Below, one piece after another: positions 26,587 to 56,550 of a DNA stretch of 64,000 nucleotides. Position 1 is the stretch's first letter. Every line of letters begins with the position of its first letter. The stretch is from Alistipes sp. (lineage in GTDB: Bacteria > Bacteroidota > Bacteroidia > Bacteroidales > Rikenellaceae): the NCBI GenBank assembly GCA_017536555.1, contig JAFXHE010000008.1:1-64000 (forward strand), given 5' to 3'. The position numbers were made by a program, and so were the translations under genes. The notes beneath the pieces were generated by a model. That model had not been told where the DNA came from, ran no database searches, and worked only from the letters and a program-made list of their open reading frames with translations.

Positions 26587-28650
26587 TTATCGACGAGCAA
26601 CAAGTGCATCAGCAGCGGTAACAACCTCATTGTCGCTTGCCTGCTTTGAAGAGAACTTAACCTTTGCAGGTGACTCTACAACAACAGCCTTGCGAGTGAA
26701 CAATGGAGCCTCCTCAACCTTCTGCTCTGCGTCGTAAACTACGCTTGCAGGCACTGCAGTAGTACCCCACCACGCATTTCTCCACTCAATGAATGACTGA
26801 ACGTCAGTGTTGCAATTGCTTCTATCGCAGTAGAAGTAGTTGTAATACATCTCTGTATAGCGACCCTCTGTATCACGACCTACAGCAGTAATAAGGTTAT
26901 TCATACCGTACTCAACAAATACGTAAGTGTACTGTGGAGCAGGGCCGTCGCCGAGCATACCGCTCATAACATACTCGTATGTATACCAATCCTTGTTGGT
27001 TGCTGAAATGAGCCAGTTGCTGGTATAGCCAAGGAGATCCTCTGATGACTTGATAAGCTCCATAGGATAGATAGCATACTGCTGTGCAAATGAGAGGTTT
27101 CCAATAGTAGGATCTGCCTCGTTAAGAGCAGTGATATCGAAGTAACCCATCTCTCGAAGCGCAATAGTCTCTGTTGACGGAGCATCAGACAATGTCTTGA
27201 ACTCGGTAGAGAACAACTTTGTAGTTGCAACACCACCACGGTAACCCATAGCAAATACTACATACTCTGTCTCGGGTGTAAGACCCATCTTCTCTGTGTA
27301 TGACATATCGCCGTGGAGATAGTCGCTACCAAAATCATAAGTCTTGATGATGTTCTGGATACGCTCACGCTCCGAGCTTCCGAACTTGTTCCACTCATCC
27401 TTTGTAGCCCAACCAGAGACATAAGGATCATTGTTGGTAGTGCGGTAACGGATTGTTGCACCGTTAGGTGTAATATCTGTAACGATAATAGTAATCTCGT
27501 TTGTTGAAGGCTCTACCTTACCTGTTGTGAACACCTCATACTGGGGAACAGACGAGCAGAGAGCCCACTCGTTGAGTGCCATAGCAAAGAGATAGTAGTC
27601 AGTCTCTGCCAAAAGCTCAACATCATACTCATCGCTTGAATACGAACCTACACTTGCAAGGATGCTCTCGGGGCTGTAATCCTGATCCATCTCATTGCAA
27701 GCAGTTGTATTCCACCACAACTCGAAGAACTCTGCAACAGTAAGACCAAGCTCTGCAGACTGTGCATCAACAGCCTCCTTTGGCATTACATCGAAGTAGA
27801 ATGCGTCGAGGTAGCTTGCAGGAGCAGTTGCCTCAATGTGTACTGCGGGGCCATCAACAGTGTATGATGTCTCAAATGCCATCTCCTGAAGAGGTACTGA
27901 AGGAGCAGTAAAAGGATAACGATAGATATCAGAGAGACGCTCACCAGTGTTTACGTCAATGTAGTACATATAGAGAAGGTACTCTGTTGCGGGGCGACAG
28001 TTAATTACCTCCTTCTCATAGGTATTACCATAAATCTTACGGATATCAATGATATCAACAGCAGTAAGACCGTGATACTGACCCAACCACGCAAAGTACT
28101 CCATATCATCGTTGAAGAGTGCATCATCATCATACAACTCATACTTGTCGATGTATGCCATATCGTATACATTCACAAGGTAAGCAGTATTCTGGTCTGC
28201 AGGATAGATATCGAAAGTACAAGTACGGTAGCCCATAGAGACCTCATCTACAGTAAATGTGAGGTTCTGGGGCTTTGCAGCCTCCTGCTTAACAGTAAAT
28301 GTTGCAGGCTCTGCATTCTTGTACTCAACTGTAACAACAGCACTACGCTGCTGCTCAACGGTGTTCTCGGCTACATCAAACTTGATGACACCTGCAGTTG
28401 TTCTGTCAATGTTAGAGATCCACTCTGCGTCAGTCAGAACGTTAACAGTCTCGCCATCAACAGGGTTCTCGATAGTGTAGTTTACGGTGTAGGTATCAGC
28501 CTTTGCCTTTGCCTCAACAACTGAAGACTTCAGCTTGATAACAGAGGTGATCTCGCTGCCATTGTCAACGGGATCATCACCGCAAGATACAACAAAAAGC
28601 AAGCTCAACAGAGGAAGCAAGCTCCACAAAAACTTTGTAATTTTGCTCAT
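26587..28650 (-). CDS. BACON-like multidomain surface lipoprotein (copy B)
   Basis: A 687-residue lipoprotein (lipobox FVVSC, Cys23) with the same layout as copy A. Its BACON-like domain (about 40-130) contains the strand VVTVEYKNAEPATFTVKQE, and three Ig-like modules follow, the first ending PATEYLLYMYYIDVNTGERL and the third TPETEYVVFAMGYRGG. A C-terminal aromatic-rich module and a short basic tail complete it. Identity with copy A is obvious along the whole length but far from complete, so the duplication is old. It has its own promoter and terminator. Its ligand is unknown. Confidence 0.82.
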   Translation of the reverse strand: MSKITKFLWSLLPLLSLLFVVSCGDDPVDNGSEITSVIKLKSSVVEAKAKADTYTVNYTIENPVDGETVNVLTDAEWISNIDRTTAGVIKFDVAENTVEQQRSAVVTVEYKNAEPATFTVKQEAAKPQNLTFTVDEVSMGYRTCTFDIYPADQNTAYLVNVYDMAYIDKYELYDDDALFNDDMEYFAWLGQYHGLTAVDIIDIRKIYGNTYEKEVINCRPATEYLLYMYYIDVNTGERLSDIYRYPFTAPSVPLQEMAFETSYTVDGPAVHIEATAPASYLDAFYFDVMPKEAVDAQSAELGLTVAEFFELWWNTTACNEMDQDYSPESILASVGSYSSDEYDVELLAETDYYLFAMALNEWALCSSVPQYEVFTTGKVEPSTNEITIIVTDITPNGATIRYRTTNNDPYVSGWATKDEWNKFGSSERERIQNIIKTYDFGSDYLHGDMSYTEKMGLTPETEYVVFAMGYRGGVATTKLFSTEFKTLSDAPSTETIALREMGYFDITALNEADPTIGNLSFAQQYAIYPMELIKSSEDLLGYTSNWLISATNKDWYTYEYVMSGMLGDGPAPQYTYVFVEYGMNNLITAVGRDTEGRYTEMYYNYFYCDRSNCNTDVQSFIEWRNAWWGTTAVPASVVYDAEQKVEEAPLFTRKAVVVESPAKVKFSSKQASDNEVVTAADALVARR

Positions 28651-32388: not shown

Positions 32389-33969
32389 TTAGAATGCTGC
32401 ATACATAGGCAGCGCACCATCGCCTCCCGACGAGAGCGTAAGTAGCATATCGCACTCTGCCATAAGCCACACAGCAACAACGATAAGAAGCACCTGACAG
32501 ATATACCCCGAGCGTGTCACGCCCCTCATAACAGCATTATCTACGCGGCGCGGCAGGAGGTGCATAACATATCCCAATAGCATCAGAGCAAGGGCGACTT
32601 CTGACTGCTCAACCATAGCGGGTATATCTGCCCACGACCAGTTGTGAGCTATGCGCATAAGCATATCCTCAACCTGATGCATACTATCGGCAGTAAAGAG
32701 CAACCAGCCGAAGGCGACAATATGGAATGTGAGGAGCGTTGCTAAAACTCTCCACGCTGGCTTCATCTCGCTACCCACCTTCTTGGCATTGGGTATAAGC
32801 TTGAGCCAGAGCTTATGTAGCGCGAGAGCCACACCGTGCAGCAGACCCCACGCCATAAAGGTAAGACCCACACCGTGCCACAAGCCTCCGAGGAACATTG
32901 TTACTATAAGGTTGAGGTAGGTGCGCAACGTGCCGTGGCGATTTCCGCCAAGTGATATATATAGGTACTCCTTCAGCCACGTCGACAGCGATATGTGCCA
33001 TCTACGCCAAAACTCGGTGATGGTAGCCGACTTATAGGGTGCATCGAAGTTATCGGGCAGGCGGAAGCCCAACAATAGCGCAACACCTATGGCGATGTCA
33101 GAGTATCCCGAGAAATCACAATATATCTGTAGCGTAAAGCCATAGATAGCCATAAGTGCCACAATACCACTATCGCCCAACTCGCCAGCAAAGGCGGGAG
33201 CCACAAACAGCACTCCGAGCGACTTGGCAATGACAGCATACTTGATAATACCGCCAGCGATAAGCGTCACAGCGCGCCCCAAGTCATCCTTCGATATACG
33301 CAAATCGCGCTGCTCAATCTGCGGGATAAAGTCTCGCGCACGCACTAACGGCCCGAGAAACATCTTCGGGAAGAAGGAGAGCAAGAAGAGGTAATCGCTG
33401 AAGTGGCGCAGCGGCTTAATTACGCCGCGCGATATATCCACCACGTATGCTATAGACTGAAACACAAAGAATGAGACACCCGCAGGTACCACCATACCCC
33501 ATTCGAGCGTGCCCTCGCCATACAATCCATTTACGAAGCCCACAAAGGCATCGGTGGCCTTGAAATAGACAAGTATCGCAACATTTATAGCCACACTAAT
33601 AGCCACAAGCCTTCGTGTGCGTGCTCCACCCTCGCGCCTACGCGCCACACGGCGACCTATAACAAAGTCACTCACCGCCACAAAGAGTAGCAGCAACACG
33701 TATAATCCAGAGAGTTTATAGTAGAAATAGAGGGAGAACAGCACGACATAGAGCGTGCGCAGACGTACCACACGTCTCACAGCCATATAGCCGACACCAA
33801 ATAGAAGAAAGGCAAAGAGGAAGAAGCCACTTGTAAGGGTTATAGGCGAGGTGGCATCATACCACAACAGGGGCAACAGACGCTCCCACATCGCCGACAA
33901 TGACTCCACAACAGCCTCGGCATCGCCACCCAACCACTCGGCTATCTTTCCGATATACTCTGCTACCAC
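32389..33969 (-). CDS. MBOAT-family O-acyltransferase (AlgI-like)
   Basis: A 526-residue polytopic membrane protein with the MBOAT hallmarks YCDFSGYSDIAIG, FWRRWHISLSTWLKEYLY and the catalytic-His segment GGLWHG near residue 365. AlgI-type MBOATs move acyl (usually acetyl) groups across the inner membrane for transfer to extracytoplasmic polysaccharide. The start is GTG at 33969, overlapping the stop of the upstream SGNH gene by 7 nt with a GAGGAG ribosome site, so the two are translationally coupled. This pairs the exporter with its probable periplasmic transferase. Confidence 0.92.
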   Translation of the reverse strand: MVAEYIGKIAEWLGGDAEAVVESLSAMWERLLPLLWYDATSPITLTSGFFLFAFLLFGVGYMAVRRVVRLRTLYVVLFSLYFYYKLSGLYVLLLLFVAVSDFVIGRRVARRREGGARTRRLVAISVAINVAILVYFKATDAFVGFVNGLYGEGTLEWGMVVPAGVSFFVFQSIAYVVDISRGVIKPLRHFSDYLFLLSFFPKMFLGPLVRARDFIPQIEQRDLRISKDDLGRAVTLIAGGIIKYAVIAKSLGVLFVAPAFAGELGDSGIVALMAIYGFTLQIYCDFSGYSDIAIGVALLLGFRLPDNFDAPYKSATITEFWRRWHISLSTWLKEYLYISLGGNRHGTLRTYLNLIVTMFLGGLWHGVGLTFMAWGLLHGVALALHKLWLKLIPNAKKVGSEMKPAWRVLATLLTFHIVAFGWLLFTADSMHQVEDMLMRIAHNWSWADIPAMVEQSEVALALMLLGYVMHLLPRRVDNAVMRGVTRSGYICQVLLIVVAVWLMAECDMLLTLSSGGDGALPMYAAF

Positions 33970-41923: not shown

Positions 41924-43774
41924 ATGGCTAATACCAAAGAAAAGTTGTTCACGGAGTTCCCACCAGTTTCAACCGAGCAGTGGGAGGCCGTAATCACAAC
42001 TGACCTAAAGGGCGCCGACTATGAGCGCAAATTGGTATGGAAGACCGGTGAGGGTTTCAACGTAAAGCCCTACTACCGTGCGGAGAACCTCGCAGATGTT
42101 GAGTTCCTCGGAACGGCAGCCGGAGAATTCCCCTTCGTACGTGGCGTGCGTAACGACAACACGTGGCGCGTACACCAGACAATCTCGGTGGAGTGTGCAA
42201 AGGCTGCCAACGAGACTGCTCTGAAGCTCCTCAACTCGGGTGTTGACTCACTCGGTTTCTGCTTCTGCAAGTCTTGCGCTTGCGAGGTAGATGTAGACGC
42301 ACTGCTCAAGGACATTGTTCCTACCGCAGTTGAGCTCACATTCTGTGGCTCTAACGTTAAGGGCTTGGCAGCACTTGCAGGCAAGGTTCTTGCAAAGTAT
42401 GCGGGCGAGGATAAGGATGCTCTTCGCATCAACTTCTGCATCGACCCCATCATCAAGGATCTCTCTGTTGCTGGCGACTTCTGCTGCAAGACAGGCGACG
42501 AGTGCTTCGACACTATCGCCGAGCTTATCAAGGCTACCGAGGAGTACAAGCACATTCGCGTAGTAAACGTATCTGGCGCAACATTCAGCAACGCAGGTTC
42601 TACCATCGTTGAGGAGTTGGCATTCTCATTGTCGGCAGCTCACGAGTACGTTGTTAAGCTTATGGAGCGCGGCTTGAGCATCGACCAGGTTGCTCGCAAG
42701 ATTCGTTTCAGCCTCGCTGTTACCTCTAACTACTTTATGGAGATGGCGAAGTTCCGCGCAGCACGTATGCTCTGGGCTAACATCGTTAAGGCTTACAACC
42801 CCGAGCGCAACTGCTCTTGCAAGATGTTTACACACGCTGTGACCTCTTCTTGGAACCAGACTGTATACGATCCTTACGTGAATATGTTGCGTGGTACTAC
42901 CGAGGCTATGTCTGCCGCTATCGCAGGCGTACACTCACTCGAGGTACTCCCCTTCGACTATGCATTTGAGGCTCCCACAGAGTTCTCACAGCGTATCGCT
43001 CGCAACGCACAGCTCCTGCTTATGCACGAGTCACACTTCGATCAGGTTGTTGACCCCGCAGGTGGTTCATACTTCATCGAGAGCCTTACCAAGAACATCG
43101 CAACAGAGGCTTGGGCACTCTTCCGCGAGATTGAGGATAAGGGTGGCTACATCGAGGCATTCCGCGCAGGTGCTATCGTAGAGAAGGTTAAGGCATCGGC
43201 TGCTACAAAGGATAAGAACATTGCTACACGCCGTCTTATCTTGTTGGGCGCAAACCAGTATCCTAACTTCACAGAGGTTGCCGACAAGGCTATCAGCGAG
43301 GAGGCTGTAACACGCAAGGCTAATGAGGGTAATGTTCTTGTACCCTACCGTGGTGCAATGGCATTCGAGGCTATGCGTCTTAAGGTTGACCGCTCGGGCA
43401 AGGCACCCAAGGCATTTATGCTTACTTGCGGCACGCTCGGTATGGCACGCGCTCGCGCACAGTTCTCTTGCAACTTCTTTGCTTGCGCAGGTATCCGCGT
43501 TGAGGATAACACCTTCTTCAAGAGTGTTGAGGAGGGCGTAGAGGCTGCATTGGCATCAAAGGCAGAGATCGTCGTAGTATGTGCTTCTGACGATGACTAC
43601 GCAACAGTAGCTCCCAAGGTTAAGGAGCTTTTGGGCGACAAGGCTATCCTCGTTGTTGCAGGTGCTCCTGCGTGCGCTCCCGAGTTGGAGGCACAGGGTA
43701 TCACCAACTTCATCAATGTTAAGAGCAACGTGTTGGAGACCTTGAAGGATTATTTGAACAAGTTGGGTATCTAA
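41924..43774 (+). CDS. mutA: Methylmalonyl-CoA mutase small subunit
   Basis: A 616-residue mutase-fold subunit (TIM barrel of the MM-CoA mutase family, with [18 protein letters not shown] and [15 protein letters not shown]). Its C-terminal Rossmann-like domain lacks the DxHxxG cobalamin motif, so it is the non-catalytic partner. It forms a heterodimer with the large subunit encoded 17 nt downstream. Confidence 0.95.
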
Positions 43775-43791
43775 TCAATATCAATCAAACA

Positions 43792-45924
43792 ATGAGAGCA
43801 AAATTTTCAGATTTAGAATATAAGGGTGCAGCTGCCACAGAGTGCTGCACTAAAAAGACCGCTCCTAAAGAGGATTGGTTGACAGCCGAGAGAATACCCG
43901 TTAAGGCGGACTACGCGGCTTGCGACCTCGAGGGCATGGAGCATCTGAACTATGCAGCAGGTATCGCTCCCTTCTTGCGCGGTCCCTACTCTACAATGTA
44001 CGTTATGCGTCCCTGGACTATCCGTCAGTACGCAGGTTTCTCTACTGCCGAGGAGTCTAACGCATTCTACCGTCGTAACCTTGCAGCAGGTCAGAAGGGT
44101 CTGTCTGTAGCATTCGACCTTGCAACACACCGTGGCTATGATGCCGACCACCCCCGCGTAGTTGGTGACGTAGGTAAGGCTGGTGTATCTATCTGCTCGG
44201 TTGAGGATATGAAGGTGTTGTTCAACGGTATTCCGTTGGATCAGATGTCTGTGTCTATGACTATGAACGGTGCCGTACTTCCCGTATTGGCATTCTACAT
44301 CGTTGCAGGTTTGGAGCAGGGCTGTACACTTGATCAGCTTGCTGGTACTATCCAGAACGATATCTTGAAGGAGTTTATGGTGCGTAACACATATATCTAT
44401 CCGCCCGAGTTCTCTATGAAGATTATCGCTGACATCTTCGAGTACACATCGAAGAATATGCCCAAGTTCAACTCTATCTCTATCTCTGGTTACCATATGC
44501 AGGAGGCAGGTGCTACCGCAGATATCGAGTTGGCTTACACCCTTGCTGACGGTCTTGAGTATCTCCGCGCAGGTATCAACGCAGGTATGTCTATCGACGC
44601 ATTTGCACCCCGTCTGTCATTCTTCTGGGCTATCGGTATGAACCACTTTATGGAGATTGCCAAGATGCGTGCAGCACGTCTGTTGTGGGCAAAGATTGTT
44701 AAGCGTTTCGAGCCCAAGAACCCCAAGTCTTTGGCACTTCGTACCCACTCACAGACCTCTGGTTGGTCACTTACCGAGCAGGATCCGTTTAACAACGTAG
44801 CACGTACAGCTATCGAGGCTATGGGTGCAGCTCTTGGTCACACACAGTCGTTGCATACCAACGCACTTGATGAGGCTATCGCTCTTCCCACAGACTTCTC
44901 TGCACGTATTGCTCGTAACACCCAGATCTACATTCAGGAGGAGACAAACGTATGCCGCTCTGTAGATCCTTGGGCAGGTTCATACTATGTTGAGACCCTC
45001 ACTAACGAGATTGCACACAAGGCTTGGGAGCACATCGAGGAGATTGAGAAGCTCGGCGGTATGGCAAAGGCTATCGAGACAGGTATTCCCAAGTTGCGTA
45101 TCGAGGAGGCTGCAGCACGTAAGCAGGCACGCATCGACTCTGGCAACGAGACTATCATCGGTGTAAACCGCTTCCGTCTTGAGAAGGAGGCTCCTATCGA
45201 CATCCTTGCTGTGGACAACACAGCGGTACGTGAGAGCCAGGTTAAGCGTCTTCAGGAGCTTCGCGCAAACCGCGACAACGAGGCTGTTAAGAAGGCTCTT
45301 GCAGCTATCACCGAGTGCGTACGCACAGGTGAGGGCAACTTGCTTGCACTCGCTGTTGAGGCAGCAAAGGTACGTGCATCATTGGGCGAGATCTCTGACG
45401 CTTGCGAGGAGGTTGTAGGTCGCTACAAGGCAGTTATTCGTTTGAATTCAGGTGTATATTCAGCAGAGGTGAAATCAGATTCAGCATTCGAGAAGGCAAA
45501 GCAGATGTGTGCTGACTTTGCAAAGAAGGAGGGTCGTCAGCCCCGTATAATGATTGCGAAGCTTGGTCAGGACGGTCACGACCGTGGTGCCAAGGTTGTT
45601 GCAACAGGTTATGCAGATATCGGCTTCGATGTCGATATGGGTCCGTTGTTCCAGACTCCCGAGGAGGCTGCAAAGCAGGCTGTGGAGAACGATGTTCACG
45701 TAGTGGGCGTATCGTCACTTGCCGCAGGTCACCTCACACTCGTTCCGCAGATCATCGCCGAGCTTAAGAAGCTTGGTCGTGAGGATATCGTAGTTGTTGT
45801 GGGTGGTGTTATCCCCGCACAGGACTACGACCAGCTCTATAAGGATGGTGCTGCTGCAATCTTTGGCCCTGGTACTCCCGTGGCTACTGCAGCTATCAAG
45901 ATTATGGAGATCCTCGCCGAGTAA
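43792..45924 (+). CDS. mutB: Methylmalonyl-CoA mutase large (catalytic) subunit
   Basis: A 710-residue subunit with the substrate barrel ([20 protein letters not shown] near residue 65, and [19 protein letters not shown]) and a C-terminal B12-binding domain. The domain contains DGHDRGAKV near residue 594 (DxHxxG, lower axial His), SSLAAGH and a GG loop. It interconverts succinyl-CoA and methylmalonyl-CoA, the B12-dependent step of propionate formation from succinate. It is cotranscribed with mutA; epimerase and decarboxylase genes are not in the window. Confidence 0.97.
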
Positions 45925-46153: not shown

Positions 46154-49100
46154 TTATGCCCACTTAACAAGGGCGAAGTCCATACGGTGCTCGAGCTTGT
46201 CGTTGGTGGGGAATACACGCAATGCGACATCGAACATACCTGTATGCTCTGGCTCATAGTCAAGAGCGAGGGTTACAGTGTTTGCATCAGATGAAACAAC
46301 ACTCAAGCGACGTGTCTCAACAACATTTGCTGCCTGACCAGCCTCAATCTGTGTTGCCACAACCAACTCTGCACCGATATCCTCCTTCTGCAAGCCTGCG
46401 AGGTCGAGAGTAATCTCGAAACGGTACTTCTTACCAACATACATAGCCTCCGACTCAATCTCTGCACGCTTAACATCGAGAATAGTAACATAGTCCCAAG
46501 CGGCAGAGACCTTACGCTTCCAAGCAGCAATCTGACGTGCCATAATGTAGTTGTTGTCGAGCATAAGCTTCTTACGCTCAGCGAGCTTATTGTAGAAACG
46601 CTCCTCGTAGTCAATGAGCATACGGTTTGTAGTGAAGTTAGAGGCGATGTCTGCCACGCACTTCTTAACCGAGTTAACCCAACGGTGAGGTACGCCATCG
46701 TCAGAACGGTCATAGTACAAAGGTACAATCTGCTCCTCGATAGTGTTGTATATCATCTCGGCATCGAGCTCATCCTGGAAACGCTGGTCGGCGTATGTGC
46801 GCTCCATAGGCAACATCCAGCCTGCGCCCTCCTTGTAGCCCTCAACCCACCAGCCGTCGAGAACAGAGAACTGCATAACACCATTCATTACACACTTCTC
46901 GCCCGAAGTACCTGATGCCTCAAGAGGACGTGTAGGTGTATTGAGCCATACGTCAACACCCTGCACCATACGACGAGCAAGCTCCATATCGTAGTTCTGC
47001 AAGAATACAATCTTACCTACGAACTCGGGCATTGCCGATACCTCAACAATACGCTTGATAAGATCCTGTCCTGGCTTATCGTTGGGGTGTGCCTTACCCG
47101 CGAAGATGAACTGCACGGGACGCTCCTTATTGTTTACCAACGCCGACAGACGCTCAAGGTTTGTGAAGAGCAAGTATGCACGCTTATATGTTGCAAAACG
47201 ACGCGCAAAACCGATAGTAAGCACATCGGGCTTGATGCTATCAACAACCTGCACCATCTGACGTGGTGACTGCAAGCGCACCTGTGTAGGATCGCTGAAA
47301 CGCTTACGTATAGTCTTGATAAGACGCTCCTTAAGCACCATACGCTCCTCCCACAACTCGCGGTCATCAATCTTGTGTACACCCTGCCAAGCGGGGATGT
47401 CGTAGGTGTGACCACCAAAGCCCTCGCCGAAGTACTTCTGGTAGAGACGACGCAAGTTCGAAGCAACCCACGTGGGGAAGTGAACACCATTAGTCACATA
47501 ACCGATATGAAGCTCATTCTTGAAGTAGCCTGGCCACATATTGCCGAGAATATCCTTTGACACCTCGCCGTGCAACCAAGATACGCCGTTGACCTCCTGC
47601 GAGAGGTTACAAGCGAGCACCGACATTGAGAACTTCTCGTTGGGGTCGCTCGGGTTTGTCTTACCCAAGTTGATGAACTGATCCCAAGTGATACCCAATA
47701 CATCGGGATAGTGCGACATATACTGACGAAGCATCGACTCGGGGAACGCATCGTGACCTGCGGGAACAGGGGTATGTGTCGTAAAGAGCGATGATGAGCG
47801 GATAACCTCCAAAGCCTCCGAGAATGAGAGGTGCTTCTTTGCGATGAGGTTACGAATACGCTCAATGCCAATAAATGCGGCGTGACCCTCGTTGCAGTGG
47901 TAAACCTCCTGCTTGATACCCATCTTTACGAGGGCGCGGATACCGCCGACGCCAAGCAAAATCTCCTGCTTGAGACGGTTCTCCCAGTCACCACCATAGA
48001 GGTAGTATGTCACCTGACGATCCTCCTCGAGGTTTGCCTCATAGTCGGCATCGAGCAAGAAGAGGTCGGTACGACCTACCTGACACTTCCAAACACGTGC
48101 CGTAAGAGTACGTCCTGGCAGAGCCACCTGTGTAGTAATCCAGTTACCATCCTCGTCACGTACAGGCGATATGGGCAACTTAAAGAAGTTCTGTGCCTCG
48201 TATGTAGCCTCCTGCGCACCCTGTGCCGAGAGACGCTGTGTGAAGTAGCCATAGCGATACAACAGACCTACTGCAACCATAGGCACATTGCGATCTGATG
48301 CCTCCTTGAGGTAGTCACCCGCAAGGATACCAAGACCACCCGAATATATCTTCAATGATGAGTGCAAACCATACTCCATAGAGAAGTATGCAACCTTTGC
48401 GTGCTCGGGAGATGGCTTCTCCGACATATACTCGCAGAACTCCTTATATACAGCATCCATACGCTTCAAGAAGTCCTTATCCTTTGTAAGCTCGTCGAGA
48501 CGTGCCGCAGAGAGCTTGTCGAGCAGAGCGATAGGATTGCGATCAACGCTTACCCACAACTCCTTGTCTGTTGACTCGAACAACTCCTGTGCAGCAGCTG
48601 TCCAGCACCACCACAAGTTACGTGACAACTCCTCCAGCGGCTTAAGACGCTGCGGGATACCCTTCTCAACCATCAAACGGTGCCAAGAGGGACGGTTTGA
48701 GGTAAGCTGCTGACGCACGAAGTTAATCTGCTCCGAGCGACCACCACCGTCGATAAGCACACGGTTAGTACGTGAAATAGAGTTATCCATAGCCTCCTCG
48801 TAAGCAACCTTATACTCGTTGAAGAGCTTTGACCAGAGTGCTGTTGATGATATCTCCTGTGCTGACTTGCGTGTAGAAGCTGCCCTCTCCTCGCTCATAT
48901 CCAAATACTTGCGCAACACATCGGTAATCTGAAGAACAACCTCACGCTCATTGTAGTCGTCACGACGAACAATATCTACGCCCTCGTGCTCCGACTGCTT
49001 TGCAACCCACATACCAAAGCCTGCAAGTGTTGTTGTAACGGTAGGCACGCCATAAGCAACCGACTCTAAAGGAGTGTAGCCCCACGGCTCATAGTATGAC

Positions 49101-50398
49101 GCAAATACGGTAAGGTCAACGCCAGCCAATACATCGTAGTAAGGCATATTGAAGATGCCATCATTGCCATTGAGGTATGTAGGCACGAACAACACCTTTA
49201 CGCGGGATGCCGTCGTTGAGAGGATGCTGCCCTCGATGCTCTGTGACACCTGATCCCAAGCCTCTGACTCAAGGTAGTGAGTAAGGTAACGCTTCTGTGA
49301 TGGGTCTATCGCATAGCTCTTATCCTCGAGGTGCTGTGCCAAGTCCTGACGCACGCCTGCGGTGGCTGCGGGCACTGCGATAACTGCAAGTACGTCGCGC
49401 TCCAAGTTACTTGATGCAAGCTGCTTGAGTGACTCAAGGAATACGTCGATACCCTTGTTACGATACTCATAGCGACCACTTGTAGCAACAATCAGAGGCT
49501 CGCCACGGAACTCATAGTCCCAAGTAGCCTGTGCCACGTCGATAAGCTTGCGACGTGCAGCAGCACGCTTCTCGGCGAGCTTCTCACCCTTCGGAACAAA
49601 GCCATTCTCAAAGCCGTTAGGTGTGATGCGTGTAACCTCACGACCAAGCAGATACTTACATTCGTTAGCCGTGATGTCGCTCACTGTAAGGAATGCATCA
49701 GCATAGGTTGCAGCCGACTTCTCCAATGAGTGCTTCGCCATAACATTGAACTGACGTGCAAGGTCATCGGCATTGAACTTGTGAAGGTCGTTGTAGAGGG
49801 GCAGACGGTTGCCAGCGATGCAACGTCCGATAACTGTAGCGTGTGTAGAGAATACCGTTGCTACATAGGGGGCATTGTCGCGCAAGTAGAGCGAACCTGC
49901 GGCTGCCATCCACTCGTGGAAGTGCGCTACGACCTTATCTGTTGATGCGCACATTGTCTCAACATACGATGCGATAACAACGCCTGCTGCGTGACCAAAC
50001 AACACGGGCTCAACATAGTCCCACTGACCAGACAACGAGTCTACGTGGTAAGAGTCCCACAACTGCTTAAGTATAGCATCCTTCTGACCAAAAAATGATT
50101 TAAAGTCAATAAGTATTGCGATGGGATTACCCTCAATCATCCAACGACCAATACGAACACGAACACCACGATTGTAAAGCGACTCGCGCCACGCCGCCAT
50201 AAGGGTTGTATCCTCCTTGAACTCGGGATTTGCTGCATCCTGCGAGAAGTCGGGACCAATGGTGATATACTTATCACCGAGCAGAGACTTCACCGTAGGT
50301 GCCTTCGAAGCGATAACGGTATGAATACCGCCCACTTTGTTGCATACCTCCCAGCTGACCTCAAACAAATAGCTGGGGGTTAGGTTTACATTACTCAT
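46154..50398 (-). CDS. Fused GT3-like glycogen synthase and GT35 alpha-glucan phosphorylase
   Basis: A 1414-residue bifunctional-looking protein. Residues 1-~560 resemble eukaryote-type (GT3) glycogen synthase: FEVSWEVCNKVGGIHTVI near the start, HFHEWMAAAGSLYL, ITPNGFENGF and PSYYEPWGYTPLES-like segments (here FASYYEPWGYTPLES). From ~586 (LEELSRNLWWCW) it is an alpha-glucan phosphorylase: YFSMEYGLHSSLKIYSGGLG, CNEGHAAF, and the pyridoxal-phosphate loop EASGTSGEKCVMNG with the cofactor Lys near 1168. One chain would build and break alpha-1,4-glucan. The start is the ATG at 50398; an upstream TTG-initiated extension would run across the TACCTTTG promoter box, so it is rejected. Confidence 0.9.
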   Translation of the reverse strand: MSNVNLTPSYLFEVSWEVCNKVGGIHTVIASKAPTVKSLLGDKYITIGPDFSQDAANPEFKEDTTLMAAWRESLYNRGVRVRIGRWMIEGNPIAILIDFKSFFGQKDAILKQLWDSYHVDSLSGQWDYVEPVLFGHAAGVVIASYVETMCASTDKVVAHFHEWMAAAGSLYLRDNAPYVATVFSTHATVIGRCIAGNRLPLYNDLHKFNADDLARQFNVMAKHSLEKSAATYADAFLTVSDITANECKYLLGREVTRITPNGFENGFVPKGEKLAEKRAAARRKLIDVAQATWDYEFRGEPLIVATSGRYEYRNKGIDVFLESLKQLASSNLERDVLAVIAVPAATAGVRQDLAQHLEDKSYAIDPSQKRYLTHYLESEAWDQVSQSIEGSILSTTASRVKVLFVPTYLNGNDGIFNMPYYDVLAGVDLTVFASYYEPWGYTPLESVAYGVPTVTTTLAGFGMWVAKQSEHEGVDIVRRDDYNEREVVLQITDVLRKYLDMSEERAASTRKSAQEISSTALWSKLFNEYKVAYEEAMDNSISRTNRVLIDGGGRSEQINFVRQQLTSNRPSWHRLMVEKGIPQRLKPLEELSRNLWWCWTAAAQELFESTDKELWVSVDRNPIALLDKLSAARLDELTKDKDFLKRMDAVYKEFCEYMSEKPSPEHAKVAYFSMEYGLHSSLKIYSGGLGILAGDYLKEASDRNVPMVAVGLLYRYGYFTQRLSAQGAQEATYEAQNFFKLPISPVRDEDGNWITTQVALPGRTLTARVWKCQVGRTDLFLLDADYEANLEEDRQVTYYLYGGDWENRLKQEILLGVGGIRALVKMGIKQEVYHCNEGHAAFIGIERIRNLIAKKHLSFSEALEVIRSSSLFTTHTPVPAGHDAFPESMLRQYMSHYPDVLGITWDQFINLGKTNPSDPNEKFSMSVLACNLSQEVNGVSWLHGEVSKDILGNMWPGYFKNELHIGYVTNGVHFPTWVASNLRRLYQKYFGEGFGGHTYDIPAWQGVHKIDDRELWEERMVLKERLIKTIRKRFSDPTQVRLQSPRQMVQVVDSIKPDVLTIGFARRFATYKRAYLLFTNLERLSALVNNKERPVQFIFAGKAHPNDKPGQDLIKRIVEVSAMPEFVGKIVFLQNYDMELARRMVQGVDVWLNTPTRPLEASGTSGEKCVMNGVMQFSVLDGWWVEGYKEGAGWMLPMERTYADQRFQDELDAEMIYNTIEEQIVPLYYDRSDDGVPHRWVNSVKKCVADIASNFTTNRMLIDYEERFYNKLAERKKLMLDNNYIMARQIAAWKRKVSAAWDYVTILDVKRAEIESEAMYVGKKYRFEITLDLAGLQKEDIGAELVVATQIEAGQAANVVETRRLSVVSSDANTVTLALDYEPEHTGMFDVALRVFPTNDKLEHRMDFALVKWA

Positions 50399-50799
50399 AA
50401 ATCTTCTATTATAAAAATACTTCGTTTTCCGAAACATAGAGTCGTCGACACCCATTGGATGCCACCGACACAAAAACACCTTTTTCAATTTGCAAAGGTA
50501 ATACAATATATTTAATAAAGAAAATCTTATTAAATAATTTTAATAAATGGTATAAATGTTATGCCGAGCGGTCATTTTTAGGGAGTGAACGGTGAATGCA
50601 AAAACGAGTCATAAAGCAAGGCGCGAACAACCTGCTCTTCAGACATATTCAACAACGCCACTCGAAATGTTCGACGCTTGCTAACTACCAAAAATACGGA
50701 TATTTACACCATATTGTTACTATTTTCATATATTGTGGCTCATATAGTTCAATTAATAGTATTTGGCGTTAAATGTGACAAAATCCCAAAAAAAATACT
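50399..50799. other. Intergenic region between the fusion gene and the sulfate cluster
   Basis: Apart from the minus-strand promoter at 50493-50500 it is AT-rich. A 50-odd-codon open frame from the ATG at about 50594 has no recognisable product and no ribosome site of note. I treat the stretch as non-coding. Confidence 0.5.
50493..50500 (-). promoter_or_regulatory. Promoter of the synthase-phosphorylase fusion gene (-7 TACCTTTG)
   Basis: An exact TAnnTTTG match on the minus strand, 95 nt upstream of the ATG at 50398. Confidence 0.65.
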
Positions 50800-50807
50800 T
50801 ATATTTG
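50800..50807 (+). promoter_or_regulatory. Promoter of the sulfate/sulfotransferase cluster (-7 TATATTTG)
   Basis: An exact TAnnTTTG match, 98 nt before the permease ATG. No terminator or second promoter is visible until after the sulfotransferase gene. Confidence 0.6.
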
Positions 50808-50905
50808 CAGACTAATCGAGCTTACCGCAACTGGTTAGCGCGGCTTACAAAACAACCCACAGATGCCCCATACCGCAAACAGAGCATCTATATAATACAT
50901 TATAA

Positions 50906-52453
50906 ATGAACGATATAAATATATATATAGTTCTTGCGGCAATCGCCTTTATGGTATGGATGTTAATACGTGACAGACTACGTCCTGGCATCTTGCTATT
51001 TAGCATTGTCGTCATCTTTATCTGCACTGGTATCTTGACCCCCAAAGAGGCTCTTGCGGGCTTCTCAAATAAAGGTATGATAACCGTGGCACTGCTCTTT
51101 TTGGTTAGCGAGGGTGTGCGCCGTTCCGACTGCCTCGGCGCGATAATGTCCTTCATATTTCCATCAAAGGAGCGTAGTTCGCTACGCAAGGGTTTGCTCT
51201 ATATTATGGGTGTTGTAGCATCAGCATCAGCATTTCTCAATAACACCCCCATTGTGGTAATCTTCATACCACACATCAAGCAGTGGTGCAGGCGCGTAGG
51301 GCTACCCATAAAGAAATTCCTTATTCCGCTATCGTATGCCGCCATACTCGGTGGTATGTGTACGCTTATCGGCACGTCAACAAACCTTGTGATTCACGGA
51401 CTTATGCTCGACGCTGGATACGAGGGGTTCTCAATGTTTGAGCTTGGCAAGGTGGGTGGAATAATAGCTATTGCTGGCATCGCATACATCGTGCTATTTG
51501 GCGACAAGCGTCTGCCAGGCGACACAACACCACAAAGCTCACAGCAACTCTCCAACGACAACTACCATATAGTAGAGGCGGTGATAGGCCCACGTTTCCC
51601 AGGTATCAACAAGTCGTGGGAGGAGTTTGACTTCAAGAACCACTACCAAGCCGACATAATTCAGATACGCCGCGCAGGTAGCATCATTGAGGATATGCAC
51701 AAAATACGCTTCCGCGAAGGCGACACGCTGGTACTATCTGCCGACGAGCAGTTTATACCCACGTGGGGCGATTCGAGCGTCTTCTTGCTCTTATCCAACG
51801 ACTTGGACTACACGCCAAAGTGTCCCGCGCCAAAGAAGTGGTTTACATTGGGGCTACTCTTAATGATGATTATAGGTGCTACACTCGGCGACACATCATA
51901 CGTCAAGGAGCTCTTCCCAACAGCTACGCTTGATATGTTTTTCTGGGCGTGCGTGGTGACTGTGATAATGGCATTTTGCAATATCTTTCCTCCCAAGAAG
52001 TACACTAAATTTATCTCGTGGGATATACTCATAACCATCGCCTGCGCCCTTGCCATAAGTCAGGCGATGACAAAGTCGGGACTTGCGGACTGGGTTGCAA
52101 GCGGTATGATTGGCTTGGCAAAGGAGATGCCGCCTATCGTCATCCTCGCCATACTCTACGTTGTGACTAACATTATAACCGAGCTTATTACAAATAACGC
52201 TGCCGCAGCCTTCGCCTTTCCTATCGCTATGGCCGCTGCCGAGCAGCTTGGCGTAAACGAGATGCCATTCTTTGTGGCGATATGTATTGCAGCATCGTGC
52301 AGCTTCTCGTCACCCATTGGTTATCAGACAAATATGATTGTGCAGGGTATAGGTGGATACACGTTCAAGGACTTCTTACGTATAGGTCTACCCCTCAACA
52401 TCATAGCCTTTATAATATCAATGATTTTCATCCCTATATTCTGGTCTTTCTAA
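50906..52453 (+). CDS. SLC13/DASS-family permease with RCK_C domain (probable sulfate importer)
   Basis: A 515-residue membrane protein with about ten helices in two halves, each with the SLC13 Asn-Thr/Pro hairpin motifs (SAFLNNTPIVV near 110 and TNNAAAAFAFPIA near 430). Between them a soluble RCK_C/TrkA-C-like domain (about 215-290, DTLVLSADEQF). The general family moves di- and tricarboxylates or sulfate with Na+. Its place directly before cysC-cysD-cysN (3-nt gap) argues strongly for sulfate as substrate, by context. Confidence 0.88.
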   Translation: MNDINIYIVLAAIAFMVWMLIRDRLRPGILLFSIVVIFICTGILTPKEALAGFSNKGMITVALLFLVSEGVRRSDCLGAIMSFIFPSKERSSLRKGLLYIMGVVASASAFLNNTPIVVIFIPHIKQWCRRVGLPIKKFLIPLSYAAILGGMCTLIGTSTNLVIHGLMLDAGYEGFSMFELGKVGGIIAIAGIAYIVLFGDKRLPGDTTPQSSQQLSNDNYHIVEAVIGPRFPGINKSWEEFDFKNHYQADIIQIRRAGSIIEDMHKIRFREGDTLVLSADEQFIPTWGDSSVFLLLSNDLDYTPKCPAPKKWFTLGLLLMMIIGATLGDTSYVKELFPTATLDMFFWACVVTVIMAFCNIFPPKKYTKFISWDILITIACALAISQAMTKSGLADWVASGMIGLAKEMPPIVILAILYVVTNIITELITNNAAAAFAFPIAMAAAEQLGVNEMPFFVAICIAASCSFSSPIGYQTNMIVQGIGGYTFKDFLRIGLPLNIIAFIISMIFIPIFWSF

Positions 52454-52456
52454 CTT

Positions 52457-53065
52457 ATGAACAGCGAGATTGTAAATAACATTCACCCCATATTTGACCG
52501 TATGCAGTCACGCGAGGAGAAGGAGCAGCAGCTCGGTCAGCGCGGCATTACCGTATGGTTCACAGGTCTTTCAGGCTCTGGTAAGAGCACAATCGCCATA
52601 GCCCTTGAGCAGCGTCTTTCACAGATGGGCATATTGTGCCGCATCCTCGATGGCGACAATGTTCGCACGGGCATAAACCGTGGTTTGGGCTTCTCTGAAG
52701 AGGATAGACGCGAGAATATACGCCGCATTGCCGAGGTGTGCAGACTCTTTACGCATACAGGCATCGTGACCCTCGCCGCCTTTGTGTCGCCCACGCAGGA
52801 GCTTCGCACAATGGCAGAGGAGATTATCGGCGCAGAGGATTTTGCTGAAATTCACGTCTCTACACCCCTTGAGGAGTGTGAGCGCAGAGACATCAAGGGG
52901 CTATATGCCAAGGCACGTCGCGGCGAGATTGGCGACTTCACAGGCATAAGCTCGCCCTTTGAGGAGCCACAGCACCCCGCACTGCGCATCGACACCACTA
53001 ATAAGCGTGTTGATGAGTGTGTTGACGAGGTACTTAACATAATTGAGAAACGTATAAAACTATAA
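52457..53065 (+). CDS. cysC: Adenylylsulfate (APS) kinase
   Basis: A 202-residue kinase that phosphorylates APS to PAPS. It has the P-loop GLSGSGKS (37-44), the APS-binding [16 protein letters not shown] segment and the lid ISSPFEEP, all family-specific. Normal length, cytosolic. The gene is 4 nt upstream of cysD. Its presence, with no PAPS reductase nearby, shows the pathway stops at PAPS in this cluster. Confidence 0.97.
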
Positions 53066-53069
53066 TATT

Positions 53070-53975
53070 ATGTCATACAGTTTGAGTCACCTGAAGGCTC
53101 TCGAAGCAGAGTCCATACATATCATCCGCGAGGTGGCGGCAGAGTTCCGCAACCCGGTGATGCTATACTCTATCGGCAAAGACTCATCAGTAATGGTACG
53201 TCTTGCCGAGAAGGCGTTTGCTCCAGGTAAAGTGCCCTTCCCCCTAATGCACATTGACTCGATGTGGAAGTTCAAGGAGATGGTGGAGTTTCGTGACCGT
53301 TATGCCAAGGAGCACAACTGGAATCTTATCGTCGAGTATAACAAAAAGGCATACGAGGAGGGTGTAGGCCCCTTCACGCACGGAAGCAAGGTACACACCG
53401 ACCTTATGAAGACACAGGCACTGCTTATGGCACTCAAAAAGCACGGCTTCGATGCCGCCTTTGGTGGCGCACGCCGCGACGAGGAGAAGAGCCGCGCCAA
53501 GGAGCGTATATTCTCTTTCCGCAATGAGTTTCAGCAGTGGGATCCCAAGAACCAGCGTCCCGAGCTATGGGATATATACAACACCCGCATAAATGCTGGC
53601 GAGAGCATACGTGTATTCCCGCTATCAAACTGGACAGAGTTAGATGTATGGCAGTATATACGTATGGAGAACATCCCTATTGTGCCGCTATACTACGCCA
53701 AGGAGCGTCCTATCGTCGAGATAGATGGCAACCTTATAATGGCTGATGATGACCGTATGCCCGAGGAGTTGCGCCGACAGGCAAAGATGCGTATGGTACG
53801 CTTCCGCACATTGGGTTGCTACCCGCTCACAGGGGCTATTGACTCGGAGGCTGACACAATAGAAAAGATTGTCGAGGAGATGATGACCACAACCAAGTCG
53901 GAGCGTACTACGCGTGTCATCGACTTCGACCAGGAGGGCAGTATGGAGCAGAAGAAACGCGAAGGATACTTCTAA
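53070..53975 (+). CDS. cysD: Sulfate adenylyltransferase subunit 2
   Basis: The 301-residue PP-loop ATP pyrophosphatase-type subunit, with the loop SIGKDSSVM (34-42), [18 protein letters not shown] and the conserved C-terminal [21 protein letters not shown] end. It makes APS from ATP and sulfate, driven by the CysN GTPase. Length and ends match E. coli CysD (302) closely. Confidence 0.97.
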
Positions 53976-54014
53976 CTTACACGACTCTTTTTCGGTATTA
54001 AATATTCGGAAATT

Positions 54015-55442
54015 ATGGCATTAAGCATAGAGGAATTTTTGGCGCAGGACGAGCAAAAAGATCTTTTGCGCCTGTTGACCGCAGGATCGGTTGACGATGG
54101 AAAATCTACACTTATAGGTCGTCTGCTCTTTGATAGCAAGCGACTCTATGAGGATCAACTTCAGGCACTTGAGCGCGACAGCAAGCGTGTGGGCAATGCT
54201 GGCGATAACATCGACTATGCACTGTTGTGCGACGGTCTTAAGGCAGAGCGCGAGCAGGGCATAACCATTGATGTTGCATACCGCTACTTCTCGACAAATC
54301 GTCGTAAGTTCATCATCGCCGACACCCCAGGACACGAGCAGTATACACGCAATATGATTACAGGTGGCTCAACAGCCAACCTCGCAATAATCCTTGTCGA
54401 TGCGCGTCAGGGCGTTGTCACGCAGACGTGCCGCCATAGCTACATCGTCTCGCTACTTGGCATACGCCATCTTGTGCTGGCTGTCAACAAGATGGATCTT
54501 GTGGAGTTCAGCCAGGAGCGCTTCGACGCAATTGTCGCGGAGTATAAGAGCTGGCTCAAGCAGCAGCATATCGACATTCCCGACCTGCAGTGTATTCCGC
54601 TCTCTGCACTCGAGGGCGACAACGTTGTTGAGAAGAGCTCACGCACGCCGTGGTACGACGGTCAGTCACTTATGGACTACCTTGAGACAGTGCCCATTGA
54701 CCAGGATATCAATATGCGCTCAATGCGCTTTCCCGTGCAGTACGTACTACGCCCCAACCTCGACTTCCGAGGCTTCGCAGGTAAGCTTGCTTCGGGTGTC
54801 GTGAAGGTGGGTGACGAGGTTATGGCACTCCCCTCGGGCAAGAGATCGCGCATCAAGGAGATAGTAACCTACGACGGCAACCTCGATGAGGCATTTGCAC
54901 CGCAATCTGTGACACTTACGTTAGAGGATGAGATTGACCTGTCACGAGGCGAGATGCTTGTACATCCCAACGACAGACCAATGCAAGGACACCACCTTCG
55001 CGCAATGATGGTATGGATGGACGAGCAACCGCTCGACAGCTCAAAGGCATTCTACCTCAAGCACACCACCAATACTACTCGCGCCTACATAACCAACGTC
55101 AAGTACCGCGTGGATATAAACACTGGCGAGAGGGTGGCAACAGAGGGAATGCGCCTAAACGAGATTTCGGAGGTCTGCATAACCACAGCCGCGCCATTAA
55201 CCTTTGACCGCTATGCCGATAACCGCCAGACAGGTGCCTTTGTTGTCATCGACCCTATAACCAACTTCACCTCTGCCGTAGGTATGATAATTGCCGAGGA
55301 CGAGGCACACGCCATAGCATCGACAATACAGGTGCGCCTATCGGAGTATGGCATCGCCCCCGAGGCGTGGAGTATCGTAGAGCACTTCTGCGAGGAGCTA
55401 CGTCAGCGCGCAGGCATTAACATTGAGTGTATAAAGGAGTAG
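54015..55442 (+). CDS. cysN: Sulfate adenylyltransferase subunit 1 (GTPase)
   Basis: A 475-residue EF-Tu-like GTPase with G1 [10 protein letters not shown] (24-33), the switch [16 protein letters not shown]3 DTPGHEQY and G4 NKMDL, then two beta-barrel domains. It couples GTP hydrolysis to APS formation by CysD. There is no fused CysC domain at the C-terminus, in line with a separate cysC gene. It lies 39 nt after cysD and 4 nt before the sulfotransferase gene. Confidence 0.97.
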
Positions 55443-55446
55443 CGAT

Positions 55447-56550
55447 ATGGGAATACTTAACTTTGAAAAACTTCCCGCAAGCACCCTCATAGGTGCAGAC
55501 AGCAGCACCATAAAGCGTGTATTGGAGGGTGTGGAGTATGAGAAGGAGTATCGCTCAAAGATACGCCTCACAAAGTGCATACAGAGCCTCCTCGCGCCAC
55601 TATACAACATAAACACACGCCGTTACGAGGCTATGCCCGTGCCAGCTACAGAGACAGCACCCGTCTTTATCATCGGACACTGGCGCAGTGGTACTACCTT
55701 CGTACACAACGTGCTCACGCAGGACAGCCAGTTTGGATATTGCACAACCTACCAGACGGTATTTCCACACGTGATGCTGTGGGGCTACCCCACATTCCGC
55801 GCGCTTGTAAAGCTCTTTATGCCCTCGACACGCGCCACAGACAAGATGGAGCTGGGCGTGGACATACCACAGGAGGAGGAGATAGCTCTATCAAATATGA
55901 CCCCCGTGGCGCACTACCACTTTCTTACGCTGCCACAGCGTATGGAGTACTACCGCGATCACTGTCTGCTGCTTGATGGCTTGAGCGACTCGGAGCTAAA
56001 CGAGTTTAAGGCAGCTATGCAGAAGTTGGTGCGCATATCGCTACACGTACAGCACAAGGAGCGATTTTTGTCTAAAAACCCGCCACATACAGCTCGTATA
56101 AAGACACTGTTGGAGATATGGCCCGATGCCAAGTTTATATACCTTGTGCGCAACCCCTACACTGTGTTTAAGTCTACGCGCGACTTCTTTGGCAAGACCA
56201 CGCAGTCGACAACACTGCAACACTTCAACGAGGAGGGCTTCGAGCTGGAGGTGCTAAAGACGTACAAGAGTCTCATTGACCGCTACGAGGAGCAGAAAAT
56301 ATTGATACCCGAGGGCAACCTTGTGGAGGTGCGCTTCGAGGATTTTGAAGCAGACCCCGTAGAGAATACTCGCCAGATATACAACACATTACAACTTGGT
56401 GACTTCGACCAGGTGCGCGCTAACATTGAGCAATATGCAGGCTCGAAACGTGGCTTTAAGAAGAACCGCTATAACTACGACAGCCACACCGTAGAGCTTG
56501 TTGATAGGTGGTGTAGCAGCACGATACAGAGGTGGGACTACCACCTATAA
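55447..56550 (+). CDS. PAPS-dependent sulfotransferase
   Basis: A 367-residue cytosolic protein (no signal peptide or helix span). The PAPS 5'-phosphosulfate loop is GHWRSGTT (77-84) and the 3'-phosphate site is LVRNPYTVFKSTRDFF (about 233-248, Arg235 and Ser243), as in the Sulfotransfer family. It is the last gene of the sulfate cluster, 4 nt after cysN, so PAPS is made where it is used. The acceptor cannot be read from the sequence. By analogy with the B. thetaiotaomicron cluster I recall (BT_0412-BT_0416), sterols or steroidal bile-acid metabolites are candidates; a lipid or glycan acceptor is the alternative. Confidence 0.9.
   Translation: MGILNFEKLPASTLIGADSSTIKRVLEGVEYEKEYRSKIRLTKCIQSLLAPLYNINTRRYEAMPVPATETAPVFIIGHWRSGTTFVHNVLTQDSQFGYCTTYQTVFPHVMLWGYPTFRALVKLFMPSTRATDKMELGVDIPQEEEIALSNMTPVAHYHFLTLPQRMEYYRDHCLLLDGLSDSELNEFKAAMQKLVRISLHVQHKERFLSKNPPHTARIKTLLEIWPDAKFIYLVRNPYTVFKSTRDFFGKTTQSTTLQHFNEEGFELEVLKTYKSLIDRYEEQKILIPEGNLVEVRFEDFEADPVENTRQIYNTLQLGDFDQVRANIEQYAGSKRGFKKNRYNYDSHTVELVDRWCSSTIQRWDYHL

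Follow-up and report, generated by a model that had tools for sequence, protein, structure and literature searches.

What does an operon predicted to activate sulfate, and ending in a sulfotransferase gene, do for an Alistipes-like bacterium, and which molecule receives the sulfo group? The operon lies on the + strand at 50906-56550 of a 64,000-nt stretch of DNA (the window), positions 1 to 64,000 of contig JAFXHE010000008.1 of the Alistipes sp. assembly GCA_017536555.1. Five intact open reading frames (ORFs) stand head to tail, separated, 5' to 3', by 3, 4, 39 and 4 nt. The ORFs and the Pfam and NCBIfam scans bear out this five-gene cluster and its spacing, as an earlier note on the same DNA had described them. 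The features are as follows.

50800..50807, + strand: putative promoter box TATATTTG, seen in the sequence 106 nt ahead of the first ATG
50906..52453, + strand: SLC13/DASS-type permease, 515 aa (PF03600, E 2.3e-72; PF00939, E 7.6e-18)
52457..53065, + strand: cysC, adenosine 5'-phosphosulfate (APS) kinase, 202 aa (PF01583; TIGR00455, 232 bits, cut-off 138.7)
53070..53975, + strand: cysD, sulfate adenylyltransferase small subunit, 301 aa (TIGR02039, 491 bits, cut-off 396.6)
54015..55442, + strand: cysN, sulfate adenylyltransferase GTPase subunit, 475 aa (TIGR02034, 608 bits, cut-off 336.1)
55447..56550, + strand: sulfotransferase dependent on 3'-phosphoadenosine 5'-phosphosulfate (PAPS), 367 aa, a diverged BT_0416-type enzyme (Sulfotransfer_3, PF13469, 131.6 bits, cut-off 27; PAPS motifs; synteny)

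We lean slightly towards reading the whole operon as a dedicated sulfonation module, with a flat 3-hydroxy sterol or steroid as its most likely acceptor. PAPS-dependent sulfonation by the operon is very probable. The choice of a sterol or steroid as acceptor, which draws on shared operon structure and ancestry, is somewhat favored. Its assignment to the sulfonation operons of the BT_0411-BT_0416 type, known from Bacteroides thetaiotaomicron, is well supported; it belongs to a diverged branch, and its gene order recurs across Bacteroidales.

In the proposed scheme, the SLC13 permease would import sulfate, CysD and CysN would convert sulfate and ATP to APS, CysC would phosphorylate APS to PAPS, and the PF13469 sulfotransferase would pass the sulfo group to a hydroxyl of the acceptor. 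The leftover 3'-phosphoadenosine 5'-phosphate (PAP) would be removed by a CysQ coded elsewhere in the host genome. By comparison with BT_0416, the acceptor would be a flat 3-hydroxy sterol or steroid of the gut, such as cholesterol, coprostanol, bile-acid derivatives or, in herbivores, plant sterols. The enzyme names used here come from family scans, and the pathway flow and acceptor from shared operon and ancestry.

The Pfam score and the PAPS motifs place the last enzyme among the PF13469 PAPS-dependent sulfotransferases. Both of the motifs that had been claimed for it were located, GHWRSGTT at residues 77-84 and LVRNPYTVFKST at residues 233-244. Residues G77 to T84, R235 and S243 are conserved in at least 97% of 66 sulfotransferase rows, a count that includes one row (L030) read on the wrong strand. 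The protein had no NCBIfam match at 0.001.

Activated sulfate could also serve reduction, so the surroundings of the operon matter. No APS/PAPS reductase, sulfite reductase or PAP phosphatase is present among the ORFs flanking the operon in the window. The host is an Alistipes-like metagenome-assembled genome of 1.63 Mb in 21 contigs, with the window on contig C7, and because it is 79% complete, absences from it are suggestive, not final. Within this genome CysD was the only match to PF01507, no APS/PAPS reductase was found beside CysDN or elsewhere, and a search for PF01077 (sulfite reductase) gave no match. The window enzyme is the sole sulfotransferase found there by protein search and PF00685, no PF13469 search having been made. 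A CysQ PAP phosphatase is coded on host contig C1; it is the sole PF00459 protein and scores 229.6 bits against a CysQ equivalog cut-off of 228.8. The claim that reductases and PAP phosphatase are lacking nearby therefore holds for the flanking ORFs, and for the reductases it extends to the genome searched, but the genome does carry a PAP phosphatase.

If the operon instead fed a reductive branch to cysteine, the sulfotransferase would be a side gene. CysD and CysN are common to assimilation too, and in a genome of this completeness binning could have missed CysH or a sulfite reductase. However, the host genome has no match to CysH or PF01077. An APS reductase requires no PAPS, so cysC would be idle in assimilation with an APS reductase (TIGR02055). 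Three relatives carry an APS reductase beside a separate, divergent CysDN. We rejected assimilation, which is most unlikely, on the missing reductase matches and on these relatives.

The relatives also show which genes travel together. Among 250 Rikenellaceae genomes, the sulfotransferase is found in 48; in the 110 with completeness of 90% or more and contamination of no more than 5%, the count is 24. One carrier of the window's genus, G087, is assembled as one contig. CysD has a match in 62, of which 47 are operon-type (79-100% identity), 14 divergent (45-52%) and one a short fragment (33%). Sulfotransferase and operon-type CysD occur together in 45 genomes, the enzyme only in 3, that CysD only in 2, and neither in 200. 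In the two CysD-only genomes the contig ends directly behind cysN (L117) or behind cysD (L118). The earlier note had named a PAPS reductase adjacent in related genomes, together with loss of the sulfotransferase, as the finding that would overturn its reading. Instead, 45 of the 47 genomes with operon-type CysD hold the sulfotransferase, and the contigs of the other two end at or before its start.

The divergent CysD was inspected in eight loci (L108-L115). In L110, L111 and L112, cysN is followed by an APS reductase gene (3 of 3 scanned, above cut-off for both TIGR02055 and NF002537). L108 has no such reductase gene and carries a 659-residue ORF with no NCBIfam match instead. Like the window operon, these three cysD-cysN-cysH loci would activate sulfate through CysD and CysN. 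They differ in a CysD 46-48% identical to that of the window, in the APS reductase, and in ABC transporter genes ahead of cysDN (one PstS-like protein scanned, 100.5 bits, cut-off 206.6). Neither cysC nor a sulfotransferase was seen among their ORFs. Two genomes, G003 and G006, hold an APS reductase locus and the sulfotransferase at separate places. Because of these two genomes and the APS reductase beside divergent CysDN, we conclude that Rikenellaceae can maintain separate systems of sulfate activation for reduction and for sulfonation. Gene content, spacing, genome searches and co-occurrence all support the earlier proposal that the cluster makes PAPS and attaches sulfate, with no reductive branch.

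The cholesterol and steroid sulfonation cluster of B. thetaiotaomicron, reportedly also the subject of Yao et al. 2022, is the known system to compare. In the passages of Le et al. 2022 (PMC9417993) that concern it, Bt_0411 to Bt_0415 are putative PAPS genes, BT_0412 being the importer and BT_0413-0415 serving PAPS synthesis. The same passages state that BT_0416 produces cholesterol sulfate both in vitro and in E. coli, that its deletion abolishes this product, and that identical clusters occur in B. ovatus and B. fragilis. They also report that in monocolonized mice, bacterial sulfonation of cholesterol alters cholesterol sulfate in the host and cholesterol in the serum. A passage of the review PMC12667688 reports genes like BT_0416 from other Bacteroidetes and names Parabacteroides merdae as showing the activity. 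Presence outside Bacteroides is thus not itself new. Literature searches on Alistipes with sulfotransferases or cholesterol sulfate yielded no title on an Alistipes sulfotransferase, which we do not take as a claim of absence.

Related enzymes are widespread. Named relatives labelled Alistipes sp. come from sheep colon (66% identity), dairy cattle colon (50%) and goat cecum (47%), and a Candidatus Cryptobacteroides faecipullorum locus has an enzyme 56% identical to that of the window. A 393-genome sample of the order gave 83 matches to the window sulfotransferase, 31 of them reaching at least 47% identity along most of its length (at least 372 bits, the window's own included) and 52 weaker (at most 242 bits). 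In one further family (f60), 87 of 301 genomes match. Genus g81 of this family is likely Bacteroides: its 16S is 92-97% identical (four genomes, best G890) to a B. thetaiotaomicron 16S stretch. Genus g196 of family f60 reaches up to 94% by the same measure.

Flanks were read in 20 of the 48 family genomes, around 16 order-level orthologues and 4 distant matches, and further in 13 stretches around CysD or the enzyme and in 11 of the 87 f60 matches. The three g81 loci read run cysQ-SLC13-cysC-cysD-cysN-sulfotransferase-PCMD. Together with the published order of permease, cysC, cysD, cysN and sulfotransferase (PMC9417993, in the passages on the cluster), they support the likeness to the layout of BT_0412-BT_0416 that had been proposed for the window. 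In the window operon as in BT_0411-BT_0416, PAPS would be produced and consumed within one operon, and neither has a reductase. The window operon differs in having no cysQ at its head (BT_0411 being cysQ judging by the g81 loci) and no PCMD gene at its tail. Its sulfotransferase also differs, belonging to a separate clade and being 50-52% identical, over the full length, to nine g81 (probable Bacteroides) enzymes. It is a putative orthologue of BT_0416, judged by synteny and by this identity to g81, which is placed as Bacteroides through its 16S.

The separate clade, here called the Alistipes type, is uniform in gene order. All 18 Alistipes-type loci read with flanks, one of them on a Cryptobacteroides contig, have the full five-gene order. 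An enzyme of genus g19 (G036) also falls in the clade and stands outside the 18, its operon being split over two contigs (L119, L120). An in-operon cysQ occurs in none of the 18 versus 32 of 34 other loci, the two misses being L096, at a contig end, and L116, where the G003 enzyme has no adjacent PAPS genes; in L081, cysQ is about 5 kb away. A PCMD-domain (PF13201) gene follows the sulfotransferase in 15 of the 34 (L157-L161 and ten of L077-L100), and again in none of the 18. Its product is about 318 aa, with an N-terminus that looks signal-peptide-like by eye; the Pfam scan covered one of the 15, to which BLAST matched the rest. It is the one recurring non-operon gene across families, and as a clue it gives no acceptor. 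Some loci outside the Alistipes type have no permease (e.g. L078, L085, L087, L093), and in L079 the cluster consists of the sulfotransferase gene, cysC and cysQ alone.

Several results weigh against a sulfate-importing, sterol-sulfonating module. The permease matches the CitMHS model of Pfam better than the sulfate symporter model Na_sulph_symp, and it scores 109.9 bits against TIGR00785 (DASS; NCBIfam cut-off 198.6); for both reasons, sulfate is a substrate suggested by the context of the gene. The missing PF01077 match says little about the host and was dropped as evidence, because a Bacteroides ihuae control has none either. The three enzyme-only genomes (G003, G006, G026) have no operon-type CysD and carry a divergent CysD, so their sulfotransferase would have to draw on that set. 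Alistipes-type sulfotransferases share a mean identity of 49-50% with each of the other groups (other Rikenellaceae, g81, other f60, other families). The published Bacteroides activity falls across this split from the clade of the window enzyme, and no row was identified as Parabacteroides. Between-group excess per column peaks in residues 149-205, between the PAPS motifs (0.220 versus 0.083-0.145 elsewhere). Finally, a profile search of solved structures ranked 2zq5 and 2z6v first (each a 'putative uncharacterized protein', presumably mycobacterial), followed by polyketide and tyrosine sulfotransferases; SULT2B1b and SULT2A1 trailed well behind at E about 0.004-0.005. Given its distance from the g81 enzymes and its clade apart, the sterol or steroid acceptor proposed earlier is so far not supported.

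The window enzyme does not place with the SULT2-type steroid sulfotransferases. It resembles human SULT2A1 and SULT2B1b in being PAPS-dependent and in a distant match around the 3'-phosphate-binding motif, but its best Pfam family is Sulfotransfer_3. The SULT2 matches in the Protein Data Bank, being weak and not best, were dropped as evidence.

A rival reading is that the chemistry is sulfonation but the acceptor is another one, the clade having moved from sterols to a bacterial lipid, a glycan, or a phenolic or triterpenoid from plants. We consider this less likely than a sterol or steroid acceptor. Forcing all Rikenellaceae enzymes into a single clade was rejected (log-likelihood 172.7 lower, p-AU 1.4e-60), in a test whose clade was defined by the family but whose free tree had been viewed beforehand. 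The test used 94 rows, without the partial L005 and four distant rows (L101-L104); the first tree had 99, with L030 on the wrong strand, which was corrected for the test. Other Rikenellaceae genera are scattered in the tree among other families, mostly near f60, f107, f106 and f79. In contrast to the 49-50% of the Alistipes type, means between the other groups are 66-82%, and the mean within the Alistipes type is 56% (window and 45 loci, without L003, L004, L005, L079, L083, L084, L101-L104 and L116). Members of f29 are 57-61% identical to g81 sulfotransferases. The absence of in-operon cysQ and of the downstream PCMD gene from all 18 loci points the same way.

However, the other operon proteins of the Alistipes type are set apart too, though less strongly: mean identity to the others is 66-67% for cysN (76-82% elsewhere), 62-64% for cysC (71-83%) and 53-58% for the SLC13 permease (61-69%). 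Part of the sulfotransferase divergence is therefore general to the operon lineage, which may have evolved faster or been transferred from another lineage. In two Alistipes-type loci (L005 8001-8933, L083 7001-7933) the sulfotransferase match stops at residue 317, and the last 50 residues have no match.

The residues that differ only hint at a changed acceptor site in the Alistipes type. Near-fixed differences between it and the others lie at 158 (H versus N), 204 (K or R versus G), 99 (C versus mostly N) and 337 (F versus Y). The regional measures compare 28 Alistipes-type with 65 other rows, without L005 and L030. The best stretch of the length of 149-205 had a permutation p of 0.022, with columns taken as independent, shared ancestry ignored, and the length chosen after the regions had been viewed. 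By two other measures this region hardly stands out: its share of the between-group difference is 0.341, barely ahead of 0.328 (71-105) and 0.327 (106-148), and its log ratio to the spread within the other group is an unremarkable 2.24 (1.76-2.40 elsewhere). That 149-205 forms the acceptor pocket is itself an assumption from the fold. It is somewhat doubtful that the Alistipes-type enzymes (28 to 30 sequences) are a distinct subfamily, in its own operon lineage that shed cysQ and PCMD, which shifted off flat sterols.

There are several reasons why the acceptor matters. If the Alistipes branch sulfonates cholesterol, the trait reaches Rikenellaceae, with relatives from the gut of sheep, goat and cattle and on a Cryptobacteroides contig; in herbivore guts, plant sterols would be likely substrates. 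If the acceptor differs, it would be a mistake to annotate these genes as cholesterol sulfotransferases on similarity. If the shift in the Alistipes type is true, the product would be a sulfated gut metabolite new to science.

The patchy presence of the enzyme, in 48 of 250 family genomes, could mean that the operon is decaying in the genus and does little in the window's genome, and the matched stretch holds internal stops in two same-genus genomes (G146 C6:12442-13404, two; G199 C7:96741-97694, one), suggesting loss in single lineages. In the window, however, all five genes are open, and the sulfotransferase differs from its nearest relative at 73, 37 and 156 first, second and third codon positions (366 codons), as under protein-level constraint. 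Decay is thus very unlikely here.

The earlier note had also set the operon behind one box. The box TATATTTG is present at 50800-50807, and we liken it to the Bacteroidota-type -7-like box. It is weak as promoter evidence and was set aside, because the + strand of the window holds 26 copies of the pattern TAnnTTTG, and because only 8 of the 17 loci compared have one within some 110 nt of where the permease gene starts. Rfam at its gathering threshold found no family near the operon, the sole match in the window being a tRNA at 528-600.

Some other genes deserve mention. In a same-genus genome, the protein coded at L071 13609-16863 (- strand), of 1085 residues, combines an FGE-sulfatase domain with a middle domain of the hydrazine-synthase-alpha kind; L072 and L073 hold relatives of it. 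In the window, a 1450-residue ORF at 46157-50506 (-) has halves that resemble, by eye, glycogen synthase and alpha-glucan phosphorylase. A lipoprotein-like ORF of 1631 residues at 7095-11987 (-) weakly matches models of coiled coils, Apolipoprotein and Filament among them. Two adjoining lipoprotein-like proteins of 697 and 687 aa at 24226-26316 and 26590-28650 (-) have BACON matches below cut-off. An MBOAT-family membrane O-acyltransferase (PF03062) lies at 32392-33969 (-), and at 41924-45924 (+) two ORFs resemble, by eye, methylmalonyl-CoA mutase, one its small and the other its large subunit.

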